Source: Candidatus Borrarchaeota archaeon (GTDB lineage: Archaea; Asgardarchaeota; Sifarchaeia; Borrarchaeales; Borrarchaeaceae). From it: 33,907 bases of DNA. Under the pieces are notes generated by a model, which worked only from the letters and a program-made list of their open reading frames with translations, made no database searches and was not told the DNA's origin. Where the stretch lies: positions 1 through 33,907 of the forward strand of contig JAEOSO010000007.1 of NCBI GenBank assembly GCA_016840315.1, read 5' to 3'. A program made the position numbers and the translations under genes. Shown one piece after another: positions 29,540-33,907 of the stretch (positions within the stretch are counted from its first letter, which is position 1; each line of letters starts with the position of its first letter).

Positions 29540-30847
29540 TCAGAATTTGCTAAGTACTCTATTGTATAGTGAGAGTATCTTGTCACAAATAATTGTTTCG
29601 TTGTACTGCTTCTCTACTGTTTTTTGTCCCTCCCATCCGATACGAGATCTAAGATCTGGATCATTTACTAATCTGTAAAGTGCATTTTCAATCTCAATGG
29701 GATCACCGGGTTTAATTAATATCCCATTTTTTTCATGAATAATGATTTCAGGGGTACCACCCGTGTTACTAGCGATAACTGGCCTTCCTAGCGCCATAGC
29801 CTCAATAATAACACGACTCAAAGGTTCTGGCCAAATCGATGGAGATACAACAATATCTGCCATTTGATAGAATTTTAGGACTTTATCATATGGCAAGAAA
29901 CCATAGTATCGTAATTGGTCGCTAATACCATTATTTATCTCTTTAATGTGATCTACTAACGGACCTTTTCCCAGAATGGCGAGTTTTATGGATGTGTTTT
30001 TTTGTAATAATCGCTTAGTTGCTTGAATAAGTGTAAGAATGCCTTTCCCATAAGTCAATTGTCCTGCATATAAAACGAGTATGTCGTTTTTATCAAACTT
30101 GTAACTATAACGCATTGTCAGCAATTCAGATTGTGTAAGGGTCTTTGGAGGTACAGGCATTATATTAGGAATCACAGAGATCTTTTGTGATAGCAAATGT
30201 AAAAAATATGGGTATCTATCAGTTGACTTTCTTGTTAAAAGATGCTTGCGCACTGCAGCACTTACTGCGATTATATGATCAGCCCGATTTAGCAGAAACT
30301 GTTTGATACTCAGATTTGCATAAATATACGGAATGACTATAGGCATAGAAAAAGAAGAAAGCATCCCTTCAAGATGGATACAGTTGATTAAATTATTAAA
30401 AGTACAACCAGTGCATACGTTGCCATTAGGTTGTATAAATGATCTTCTAAAACAGATAGGCCAATAATCACGAATAGTACCAATCACAGGCGTTTTTGTT
30501 TTTCGACCAGCAATAATAGAAGGAGGTATCGTGAGAATATTTTGCGCATGAATAAGATCAATTTTTTGATCTATTATAATCTTTTTAAGCTTTTGTGCTA
30601 TGTAAAAGTAAAATAACTCATTTTTTATAATATTTCTGACTAAAGGCACATCTGGTGCACGAAGATATTGAAGACGGATGATTTTGAACCATTTATGCTC
30701 TTCATATATAGTTTTTTGACCGAAATGCGGCATGACGACTAAAATATTATGTCCTCTTTTGGCGAGTCCTTTCGCTAAAAAATAAGTGCTTCGTTCACTA
30801 CCTCCTCCTTCGGGGGGAAATAAATCCGTAACTATACAAATATTCAT
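29540..30847 (-). CDS. GT4-family glycosyltransferase with Cys cluster (paralogue 1)
   Basis: A 435-residue GT-B enzyme. The N-terminal FPPEGGGSERSTYFLAKGL is the usual glycine-rich loop. The C-terminal domain shows VLYAGQLTYGKGILTLI, ILGKGP and the E-x7-E motif EPLSRVIIE (E341, E349) followed by GRPVIASNTGGTPEI. An insert after DYWPI carries four cysteines (C132, C145, C148, C156), which could hold zinc. It is a clear tandem duplicate of the next gene upstream: residue numbers of both motifs are identical, and similarity runs end to end. AAGG lies ten bases before the ATG. It is likely part of the surface-glycan cluster. Confidence 0.9.
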   Translation of the reverse strand: MNICIVTDLFPPEGGGSERSTYFLAKGLAKRGHNILVVMPHFGQKTIYEEHKWFKIIRLQYLRAPDVPLVRNIIKNELFYFYIAQKLKKIIIDQKIDLIHAQNILTIPPSIIAGRKTKTPVIGTIRDYWPICFRRSFIQPNGNVCTGCTFNNLINCIHLEGMLSSFSMPIVIPYIYANLSIKQFLLNRADHIIAVSAAVRKHLLTRKSTDRYPYFLHLLSQKISVIPNIMPVPPKTLTQSELLTMRYSYKFDKNDILVLYAGQLTYGKGILTLIQATKRLLQKNTSIKLAILGKGPLVDHIKEINNGISDQLRYYGFLPYDKVLKFYQMADIVVSPSIWPEPLSRVIIEAMALGRPVIASNTGGTPEIIIHEKNGILIKPGDPIEIENALYRLVNDPDLRSRIGWEGQKTVEKQYNETIICDKILSLYNRVLSKF

Positions 30848-30917: not shown

Positions 30918-32231
30918 TTAGCCTCTGAAATTGTGAATAATCTTCTTATATAGAGAGATTGTCTGATCACAAATAATTGCTTCATTATATCGTTTCTCTA
31001 TTGTTTTTCTTGCTTCTAATCCTAGACGTGATCTGAGGTCTGAGTCGTTTATTAATCTATGAAGTGCACTTTCTATCTCATTAGGATCACCAGGTTCAAT
31101 TAATATGCCATCTTTTTCGTGAGTAATAATTTCAGGTATACCACCTACATTAGTCGCAATGACTGGCTTTCCTAGTGCCATAGCCTCAAGATTAACGCGA
31201 CCTAGCGCTTCAGGCCAAATTGAAGGAACTACAACGATATCAGCCATTTGATAGAATTTCAGGACTTCATTATACGGTAAAAATCCATAATATCGTAAGT
31301 GATCGCTAAAACGACTTTTAATTTTTTTAAGACGACTGGCTAATGGACCTTTTCCCAGAATAATGAGTTTTAATGAAGTATTCTTTAGCAATAATCGCTC
31401 AAATGCTTTAATAAGAATAAGAACGCCCTTCCCATAAGTCAATTGGCCTATATATAAAACAAGCATATCGTTTTCATCTAACTTGTAATTGTGACGCATT
31501 CCGAGTAATTCATGTTGTGTAAGTTTCTTTGAAGGTATTGACATAATATTTGGAATCGTAGAGATTTTCTGTGGAGACAACCGCGAGAAATATTTTAATA
31601 TAGCTATAGGCGGCCTTGTCAAAAGCAGTGCACGTACTGCCTCACTAATTGCAATTACATGATCCGCTCGGTTCAAAAGTGATTGTTTAAGACCCATATT
31701 AGCAAAAACATAAGGAATACTTACAGGCATGAAAAACGAGGAAAGTTGACCTTCTAGGCGAATACAGTTAATCAAATTTTTAGAATTACAACTGTCGCAA
31801 ACACTGCCATTAGGACGTACAAAAGATCTCCTAAAACAAATTGGCCAATAATCACGAATATGGGCTATTACGGGAATGTCAGTTTTTTTGGCAGCAATGA
31901 TCGATGGGGGAACTGTTAGGATATTTTGAGCGTGAACAAGTTCTATTTTGTAAGTTTTTATAATTTTTTTGAGCATCTGTGCCATATAAAGGTAAAGCAA
32001 CTCATTTTGTACAACATTTCTGAAAAAAGTTATATTTGGTGCATGAAGATATCGAAAACGGATAATTTTAAACCATTTGTGTTCTTCAAATATTGTTTTT
32101 TGACCAAAACGTGGCATGACGACAATAATATTATGCCCTCGTTTGGCGAGACCTTTAGCCAAAAAATAAGTGCTAAGCTCACTACCTCCTCCTTCCGGGG
32201 GGAATAAGTCCGTTGCTATACAAATATTCAT
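30918..32231 (-). CDS. GT4-family glycosyltransferase with Cys cluster (paralogue 2)
   Basis: A 437-residue GT-B enzyme closely related to its neighbour; by eye well over half of positions are identical, with no large gaps. It keeps the glycine-rich loop (FPPEGGGSELS), the four cysteines at the same residue numbers (C132, C145, C148, C156) and the E-x7-E motif EALGRVNLE (E341, E349). The leader sequence upstream of the ATG is similar too (AAGG at comparable spacing), so the duplication included the ribosome site. Differences concentrate in the acceptor-side domain, which suggests the two copies add sugars to different acceptors. It is the first gene of the minus-strand glycan run. Confidence 0.9.
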   Translation of the reverse strand: MNICIATDLFPPEGGGSELSTYFLAKGLAKRGHNIIVVMPRFGQKTIFEEHKWFKIIRFRYLHAPNITFFRNVVQNELLYLYMAQMLKKIIKTYKIELVHAQNILTVPPSIIAAKKTDIPVIAHIRDYWPICFRRSFVRPNGSVCDSCNSKNLINCIRLEGQLSSFFMPVSIPYVFANMGLKQSLLNRADHVIAISEAVRALLLTRPPIAILKYFSRLSPQKISTIPNIMSIPSKKLTQHELLGMRHNYKLDENDMLVLYIGQLTYGKGVLILIKAFERLLLKNTSLKLIILGKGPLASRLKKIKSRFSDHLRYYGFLPYNEVLKFYQMADIVVVPSIWPEALGRVNLEAMALGKPVIATNVGGIPEIITHEKDGILIEPGDPNEIESALHRLINDSDLRSRLGLEARKTIEKRYNEAIICDQTISLYKKIIHNFRG

Positions 32232-32394
32232 TGCTGTACAACCTTACACAAATATGCTTTACAGCTAAAGTTATTTACAACTATTTTTTTAAAGTACTAT
32301 TATATTCTATAATAACCAGACTAAAACAAATAGATCAACAGGTAAATAAACGGGCGCGTAATTAGCTATAAAATTTTTAAAGAGCGACTCTCAC
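32232..32394. other. AT-rich spacer upstream of the glycan cluster
   Basis: No gene is seen here. On the minus strand it should hold the promoter of the glycosyltransferase run. Together with the element at 32395-32770 it makes up the longest stretch of the window without a protein gene (32232-32827). The bases just before 32395 would serve as the guide region if the element encodes an IscB-type omega RNA. Confidence 0.5.
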
Positions 32395-32770
32395 GGTTCA
32401 AGTCAACTACTCCACCCTAAAGGGTAGGCTTTAAAAAGTCCCTTAGTTGATTAGGGGGCTCCCTTCTATGGGGAGCAGCAGTTGTGTGGGTTACGACACC
32501 CGTGGATTTTCCATTAGTCCCTTACTCTATCGTACGCTGATTAAAAGTCCTGATAGGTAGGGACGGTGTCACGGACGGGTAAGGCCTAACAACAACCTCG
32601 AAGTGGACCTACTCCCTGGTGTTGGGAGGACGGGACTTGCGAGTTCCCGTTATTAAAACACCATCCGATGGTGGGTACACCACCCTCTGTTCTCGCAGAA
32701 AGGGATATGTGAGCCCCACCCGACCTCAATGCCTCTCCGCCCTAAAGGGCTGGAGTCTCCTTGAGGTGTT
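32395..32770 (+). ncRNA. HEARO/omega-RNA-like structured element without a protein gene
   Basis: This non-coding stretch is much richer in G and C than its surroundings and dense in hairpins: ACCC/GGGT (32414-32425), GCTCCC/GGGAGC (32458-32476), CTCCC/GGGAG (32612-32628), ACGGGA/TCCCGT (32630-32650) and CACCAT/ATGGTG (32659-32673). It begins with a GTCAACTACTCC hairpin typical of IS200/IS605-type ends and closes with the palindrome at 32723-32767. Three ordered blocks are shared with 33661-33907: TTAGTTGATTAG (32443), TAGTCCCTTACTCT (32515) and CGAAG..ACCTACTCCCTG (32599). This resembles the HEARO RNAs that accompany IscB/IsrB nucleases, but no nuclease frame lies inside. The family name is from memory of such RNAs; the repeat relation and hairpins are read directly. 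Confidence 0.6.
32723..32767 (+). repeat. Right-end palindrome of the RNA element
   Basis: The outer stem pairs ACCTCAA (32723-32729) with TTGAGGT (32761-32767). The inner stem pairs CTCC+GCCC (32735-32742) with GGGC+GGAG (32747-32755) around TAAA. The design matches the palindrome at 128-170. It ends about 60 bases before the PCNA start codon. Confidence 0.7.
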
Positions 32771-32827
32771 TCAAATGAATAAGAGATTATAAGCAAATTT
32801 AAATTAATATTAATTGGAAGGATGAAG

Positions 32828-33592
32828 ATGGTTGTTAAAGGTATTTTTGAAGAAGCAAGTACTTGGAAGACAATAATCGAAGCTTTGTCAGCCCTTGTAA
32901 AGGAGATCTATTTTTCTGCAGACGAATCCGGTCTTCATGCGCGTGCCATTGACGAAGCGCATATTGCGATGGTCGATTTAAGTTTTCCTAAAGAAGCGTT
33001 TCAAGACTATACGTGCACAGGAGAAACAAAATTTGGAATTAGCCTTACTGAAATGATGCAAATCATGCGCAGAGCAGGGGGCTCAGATTCTTTAGAATTA
33101 ACCGTTGATGAAAACAAAAACAAACTGGAGATAAAATTAAAGTCAAATAAAGTTACACGTAATTTTAGCCTTTCTCTACTCGGAGATACAAGCGGAGAAG
33201 AGATACCAGTTCCCAAAATCGAATATAATACAGTAATTACGATAGTTGCAGGGATGTTTAAAGATGCGATTAAAGATGCTGAAGTCATAGGAGACTACAT
33301 ACTTCTGGAAACGACCCCAGATGTGCTTAAAGTGGCGGCAGAAGGAAATACAGGGAACGTTGAGGTAACTATTGACAAAGAAACCGACCAACTCTATAAA
33401 TATGAGGTAAGAGAAGATTCAAAGGCAATTTATGCTCTTAAGTATCTAAGTGATATGACTAAGGCGGTTAGCTCAACAGATACTCTAGAAATTGAATACT
33501 CAAGCGATATGCCCTTAAAAATAGGATTCGAAACTCTTGGAGGGGGGAAGTTAGAATATTATTTAGCCCCTCGAATTGAGGGTAGTGAATAA
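32828..33592 (+). CDS. pcn: DNA polymerase sliding clamp (PCNA)
   Basis: This ring-forming clamp tethers polymerase, ligase, FEN1 and other factors to DNA. About 254 residues form two similar halves. Visible marks are WKTIIEALSALVKEIYF, the loop LHARAIDEAHIAMVDL, the interdomain region, and YALKYLSDMTKAV with LEIEYSSDMPLKIGFE and LEYYLAPRIEG at the C-terminus. I use the ATG at 32828, with GGAAGG (32816-32821) six bases upstream; an ATG two codons earlier directly abuts that SD site. An AT-rich TATA-like stretch lies at about 32797-32810, between the mobile RNA element and the gene. RNA elements flank the gene on both sides. Confidence 0.96.
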   Translation: MVVKGIFEEASTWKTIIEALSALVKEIYFSADESGLHARAIDEAHIAMVDLSFPKEAFQDYTCTGETKFGISLTEMMQIMRRAGGSDSLELTVDENKNKLEIKLKSNKVTRNFSLSLLGDTSGEEIPVPKIEYNTVITIVAGMFKDAIKDAEVIGDYILLETTPDVLKVAAEGNTGNVEVTIDKETDQLYKYEVREDSKAIYALKYLSDMTKAVSSTDTLEIEYSSDMPLKIGFETLGGGKLEYYLAPRIEGSE

Positions 33593-33660: not shown

Positions 33661-33907
33661 ATGTCAATTACCCCCTACCAAGTGAGGGGGCTTGTTTCGT
33701 GAGGAGCAAGAGTAATTAGTTGATTAGCCTAAGAGAGGTCATATGGTATATGGCGGTATCTAAGTTATCAGGAGAGTTAAAGAACACACCAAGGGATGCT
33801 TCTCTAGTCCCTTGCTCTGTAAATGGTGGTTTAAACAGAGAGGAAACTCTCAGTGATCATCATAGAGTACTGACTGATAACCTTGGCGAAGAGAACCTAC
33901 TCCCTGT
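33661..33907 (+). ncRNA. Second HEARO/omega-RNA-like element, cut by the window end
   Basis: It begins ATGTCAATTACCCCCT with hairpin CCCCCT/AGGGGG (33671-33690), the counterpart of the hairpin at 32412. Then come TTAGTTGATTAG (33716-33727), TAGTCCCTTGCTCT (33805-33818) and CGAAG..ACCTACTCCCTG (33887-33906), in the same order and at similar spacing as in 32395-32770. Further hairpins are CTCTGT/ACAGAG (33815-33840) and GAGAG-GAAA-CTCTC (33838-33851) with a GNRA loop. The pairing differs in sequence between copies while the blocks are kept, which argues for a conserved RNA. In IscB elements the RNA precedes the nuclease gene, so such a gene may lie just beyond the window. The region holds no protein gene that I can support. 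Confidence 0.6.

Follow-up and report, generated by a model that had tools for sequence, protein, structure and literature searches.

OMEGA nucleases, among them the Cas9-like IscB, have been proposed to retain transposons by cutting the empty site, after which repair restores the element. In IscB systems, the 5′ end of the omegaRNA holds a 16-17-nt guide, and a TAM is required beside the target (PMC9640706); the TAM of DtIsrB is NTGA (PMC9581776). The element described here lies in a window of 33,907 nt (the whole stretch of DNA that was analysed). It is similar to the HEARO/IscB omegaRNA (RF02033) in passing the gathering score over the full model, in the 5′ position of its guide, and in its fold. 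It differs from that RNA in having no adjoining iscB or isrB, in carrying an extra 3′ pseudoknot and arm, and in the partial decay of the window copy.

An omegaRNA element without a protein gene

An Rfam scan of the whole 33.9-kb contig returned only two matches at E ≤ 1, both to HEARO, at 32402-32612 (83.4 bits against a gathering score of 83, E = 1.4e-15, full model) and at 33663-33900. In the same scan, the module 3′ of the first omegaRNA matched no other Rfam family, and its arm matched none. The element sits between a glycosyltransferase gene and pcna, which encodes the DNA clamp. Its GC content is 52%, compared with 29% and 19% in the two intergenic flanks, and the single-strand fold of the block is stronger than those of shuffled sequences (z = −2.7). 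The left hairpin and the right palindrome both contain CTCCxCCCTAAAGGG (repeat D10). No iscB or isrB was found inside the element or ahead of pcna, thus the locus is an omegaRNA element and not an IscB locus. Minus-strand tandem glycosyltransferase genes (29540-30847 and 30918-32231), about 72% identical over 300 nt, represent a local duplication.

An earlier note on this DNA had described a GC-rich, hairpin-dense block of about 375 nt at 32395-32770, with its own left hairpin and right palindrome and no reading frame. The block is borne out by the Rfam match, the composition and the fold; both end structures are present, with ends placed close to those noted by comparison with relatives, and the single 51-codon frame, at 32637, is not conserved. 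The sequence blocks that the note had seen in common with a copy 1.3 kb away reflect the homology of two HEARO RNAs of different subfamilies and not chance. None of the three outcomes that the note had named as refuting it was observed. The covariance-model search gave the HEARO match above the gathering score, related genomes contain further HEARO copies, and both the omegaRNA and the 3′ module show double-sided changes. The features are as follows.

32386..32401, plus strand: host-derived putative guide, 16 nt, directly 5′ of the omegaRNA (position according to IscB omegaRNA biology, PMC9640706)
32402..32774, plus strand: the entire element, 373 nt, without a protein gene (ends set by comparison with L054 of B. 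yapensis, where the site is empty, L053 of Sifarchaeum, which shares the insertion, and L055 of B. weybense, where another insertion is found)
32402..32612, plus strand: HEARO/omegaRNA scaffold, B-type, partly decayed (RF02033, 83.4 bits; 56 of 65 consensus pairs)
32410..32428, plus strand: left subterminal palindrome (matches, as reverse complement, the right end of L041, the TnpA-TnpB element of the genus)
32613..32662, plus strand: hairpin H1 and pseudoknot, in which the loop GGUGUU (32618-32623) pairs with AACACC (32657-32662) (pair counts in aligned copies)
32630-32651, plus strand: hairpin H2, a remnant of the iscB start, enclosed by the H1 pseudoknot
32667..32727, plus strand: arm specific to protein-free elements, with an inner motif of CUG-loop-CAG and AAA bulge (helices 4-6 of the pair count)
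32724..32766, plus strand: right-end palindrome of IS200/IS605 type (from the sequence, and from right-end-like matches of the covariance model R1 in other Asgard genomes)
32775..32778, plus strand: ATGA flanking motif, TAM-like, host DNA outside the element and already in the empty site (locus alignment; NTGA is the DtIsrB TAM, PMC9581776)
33663..33900, plus strand: second HEARO, A-type, cut by the contig end (Rfam, 130.5 bits, E = 4.6e-27)

Insertion sites and mobility

The window comes from an Asgard genome of the Borrarchaeum/Sifarchaeum group, assembled from a metagenome; its pcna is 88-89% identical to the genes of Ca. Sifarchaeum marinoarchaea, Ca. Borrarchaeum yapensis, and Ca. B. weybense. 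The DNA between the glycosyltransferase gene and pcna was aligned for all four genomes. The locus is empty in B. yapensis (..CTCACAGTTCAA ATGATAG..). One insertion is common to the window and Sifarchaeum (..CTCACGGTTCAA / GTCAACTACC...GAGGTGTTTCAA / ATGAAT..), and B. weybense carries a related element, inserted independently about 70 bp further from pcna (..CAGGTAA / GCCAACTACC...GGTATTTCT / ATGAACG..). The alignment thus defines the element as 32402-32774, inserting 5′ of a pre-existing ATGA with no target duplication. A conserved host RNA at pcna, a candidate raised by the occurrence of HEARO upstream of pcna in three genomes, was rejected because the alignment resolves into one shared insertion, one independent insertion, and an empty site. 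Downstream of pcna, where the window has its second HEARO, a solitary right-end remnant is present in B. weybense, and no HEARO was found at that place in Sifarchaeum.

For eight other protein-free copies (298-407 nt in length), the joined flanks were searched in the four genomes, and precise empty sites, continuous across the joint, were found in relatives for five. At the pcna locus and for these five copies, the insertion is precise, relatives retain the empty site, and no target sequence is duplicated, as expected for a non-autonomous IS200/IS605 (ISC) element. Among 88 copies, 87 distinct 16-mers are located 5′ of the omegaRNA; the sole shared one belongs to the insertion common to the window and Sifarchaeum. 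In 16 of 43 HEARO elements (genomes G000-G003), a long reading frame begins at the flanking ATGA or GTGA, compared with 18.6% for a random ATGA of the window, thus insertions are often directly before a start codon, the excess being modest. Across 31001-33592, identity to the Sifarchaeum locus is 96.9% upstream of the element, 88.8% within it, and 87.3% in pcna. This drop hints at recombination with a breakpoint near the left end of the element.

Constraint on the omegaRNA fold

For the B-type class, to which the window copy belongs, 17 protein-free and five coding copies were compared over 65 consensus pairs. The other protein-free omegaRNAs keep 61-64 pairs, the same as the coding copies, with double-sided changes at 19 of the 65 pairs among protein-free copies, and the window copy keeps 56 with nine broken, the most degraded of its class; these counts, like those given below for the 3′ module, are biased in favour of the structure, because the structures were partly derived from the same sequences. 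The Sifarchaeum counterpart of the same insertion scores 114.2 bits with the HEARO model. Judged by pairing, the omegaRNA fold is generally maintained in protein-free copies and is decaying in the window copy, which makes the window insertion probably a relic by now. In the omegaRNA tree, read for its topology alone, protein-free copies are found in several clades, two of which are purely protein-free and span several genomes, the others being mixed.

A structured RNA module 3′ of the scaffold

About 155 nt 3′ of the scaffold are common to the protein-free elements, and 24 copies were aligned. The structure whose pairs were counted comprises the H1-loop pseudoknot and H2, followed by a long arm (CUG-loop-CAG stem, AAA bulge) and by the palindrome of the right end. 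Pairing is observed in 93.1% of cells, compared with 39-49% when the partner is slid, and 14 pairs show double-sided change; the observed values were reached by 0-2 of 500 shuffles. H1, the pseudoknot, and H2 are paired in 97-100% of cells, with double-sided changes in the pseudoknot, and arm helices 4-6 in 91-99%, with double-sided change in seven pairs.

The same module was found with copies of four omegaRNA classes. The arm motif is present in most protein-free copies and at the same place in none of the coding copies. Against coding elements, R1 matches H1/H2 or the right end only, the exception being one coding locus at which it matches a neighbouring protein-free element. On these grounds, the arm as a normal part of iscB elements was rejected. 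Among 39 Asgard genomes, strong R1 matches are confined to four Borrarchaeaceae genomes, and the arm was found neither in the loci of other Asgard genomes nor in viral contigs. R1 matches of 27-29 bits in two genomes (G013 and G014) were rejected as arms, since they are ordinary right-end hairpins.

Copies, origins, and partner proteins

HEARO is present in 14 of 228 Asgard genomes, with about 39 matches in this genome and 36, 13, and 9 in three congeners. When the flanks were fetched in four related genomes, about 31 copies are followed by iscB, about 16 by isrB, and about 34 are protein-free (six here, 19 in B. weybense, and six and three in the other two); contig ends truncate two additional protein-free copies of this genome. 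Elsewhere among the Asgard genomes (e.g., in G172 and G004), there are protein-free copies whose right-hand parts are different, thus the protein-free state probably arose more than once. The protein-free HEARO elements of G172 (L180, L182, L184, L186) are its own, with a different structured right part of about 150 nt and without the arm. A plasmid search gave a single match, in Anoxybacillus (88 nt at 79%). A separate repeat of about 110 nt, ending in GTGAGGTAGTTCAC, has more than 40 copies in the four genomes and was found at the left flank of the element at G001 C7:413670 (positions 521-628 of the joined-flank query). It looks like a stand-alone omegaRNA/right end of TnpB elements, possibly a second protein-free OMEGA family.

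With the NCBIfam model guided_IscB (cut-off 175), the one iscB tested of the window copy's omegaRNA class reaches 371.9 bits, and it resembles solved IscB structures. Full-length Y1 TnpA is encoded in two congeners (G001 and G003), and TnpA was not found in this genome, a MAG that is 76.7% complete. The left end, reverse-complemented, was compared with the right end of the genus's tnpA-tnpB element (L041): 27 of 32 columns are identical for the cognate coding copy (G000_C180), and the window copy scores 30 against a shuffle maximum of 19. A-type left ends, which have a CCCCC palindrome, do not match the TnpA element end (G001_C4_1253092).

Discussion

With a probability of roughly 85%, we regard the element as a non-autonomous, MITE-like member of the ISC/IS200/IS605 group that bears an omegaRNA, is moved by TnpA, and is retained by IscB in trans, the window copy being now a relic. 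Both transposon ends and the omegaRNA would have been kept, and the iscB gene replaced by a structured RNA module of about 100 nt. We infer that Y1 TnpA, acting in trans, excises and inserts the element, the left end of which, when reverse-complemented, nearly matches the right end of the tnpA-tnpB element of the genus. The transcript, with a guide taken from the left flank, would then be loaded onto the IscB or IsrB of a related element. Since the empty site presents the left flank followed by ATGA, the borrowed nuclease would cut or nick it there (guide, then ATGA as the TAM), and repair would restore the element. Dozens of copies and the empty sites in relatives suggest that the element spreads with proteins borrowed from its full-length relatives. 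At the level of sequence comparison, the genomes show that elements of this type move within Borrarchaeaceae, enter precisely 5′ of ATGA with no duplication of the target, and maintain their omegaRNA folds in many copies. The window copy would be an old insertion shared with Sifarchaeum, probably a relic, at which, given its broken pairs, nuclease-aided retention is probably over.

Two readings had been offered in the earlier note. That of a compact non-autonomous element moved or acting in trans is supported by the empty sites, the independent insertion in the same intergenic region, the many protein-free copies, and the cognate iscB/isrB and tnpA in the genus, the use of the RNA by IscB in trans being the presumed part. 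The other, an omegaRNA retained for the host at pcna, for instance as an RNA-guided regulator of the pcna region, would fit the position between the glycosyltransferase gene and pcna, the insertion common to two species, and the independent arrival of a related element in the same intergenic region of a third. However, the locus is empty in B. yapensis, guides are different at every insertion, and the window copy is more degraded than any other in its class. It has diverged from its Sifarchaeum counterpart by about 11%, approximately as much as the pcna gene has and more than the upstream flank (3%). A domesticated host RNA is expected to show conserved position and purifying selection, whereas a congener is empty and the window copy is degraded. 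Given that the genus does not conserve the insertion and that base pairs are being lost from the window copy, host use is unsupported, and we consider it very unlikely.

Alternatively, every protein-free copy could have arisen recently from an iscB element by internal deletion and been inactive from the start. The first ~9 iscB codons indeed remain, and three loci (L009, L113, L107) resemble further deletion forms. Such an origin is nevertheless improbable, given that the same module recurs across four omegaRNA classes, purely protein-free clades extend through several genomes, the compact form has inserted precisely at empty sites, base pairs are maintained, and the arm is present in no coding element. 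That the element is not protein-free after all, its module coding for a small protein, has next to no probability. A 51-codon frame is open from TTG at 32637, but what the copies have in common is limited to its first ~9 codons, the iscB start (LRVPVIKTP), with frameshifts in the remainder; in other copies the frame runs for 6 to 78 codons and is interrupted at many sites, its ends diverging, while the pairs are kept. The small-ORF reading of the module was rejected on this lack of conservation.

Returning to the preferred reading, a non-autonomous element served in trans, its 3′ pseudoknot-and-arm domain may be an acquired functional RNA that replaces the cis-encoded IscB and marks a lasting class of elements that parasitise OMEGA systems with RNA alone. 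We put this forward tentatively, as an idea somewhat more doubtful than probable. If true, the arm domain could, e.g., stabilise the RNA or capture IscB or TnpA in trans, and guide RNA and nuclease would be separate genes, a natural parallel to the guide/Cas9 split in CRISPR. The insertion sites show that the guide RNA of an OMEGA system can be dispersed as a transposon's main cargo without its nuclease gene; such spread in Asgard archaea seems undescribed in the papers searched. As sources of guides acting in trans, the protein-free elements are obvious candidates, and they make it directly testable whether IscB serves its own element only or any element with a matching RNA.

Compared with the IscB/IsrB OMEGA elements (ISC group, IS200/IS605), the protein-free elements have similar ends, the same omegaRNA classes, and insertion 5′ of NTGA-like motifs, and they differ in having a non-coding module in place of the protein gene. 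With IS200/IS605 MITEs and non-autonomous derivatives they share both subterminal palindromes, the lack of a transposase, many copies, and no target duplication. Unlike those, they keep a full guide RNA and an added structured RNA, which could let them exploit both the nuclease and the transposase. OmegaRNA loci that stand alone, without an adjoining iscB, were reportedly described by Altae-Tran in 2021 in Ktedonobacter racemifer, in a genome that also has iscB. These are similar in having no gene beside the omegaRNA and different in being bacterial, and to our knowledge neither a dedicated 3′ arm nor empty-site evidence has been reported for them. The RNA family and the transposon group are already known. 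What seems to be new is the scale in an Asgard lineage, the empty-site evidence of movement, the purely protein-free clades, and the dedicated 3′ RNA module.
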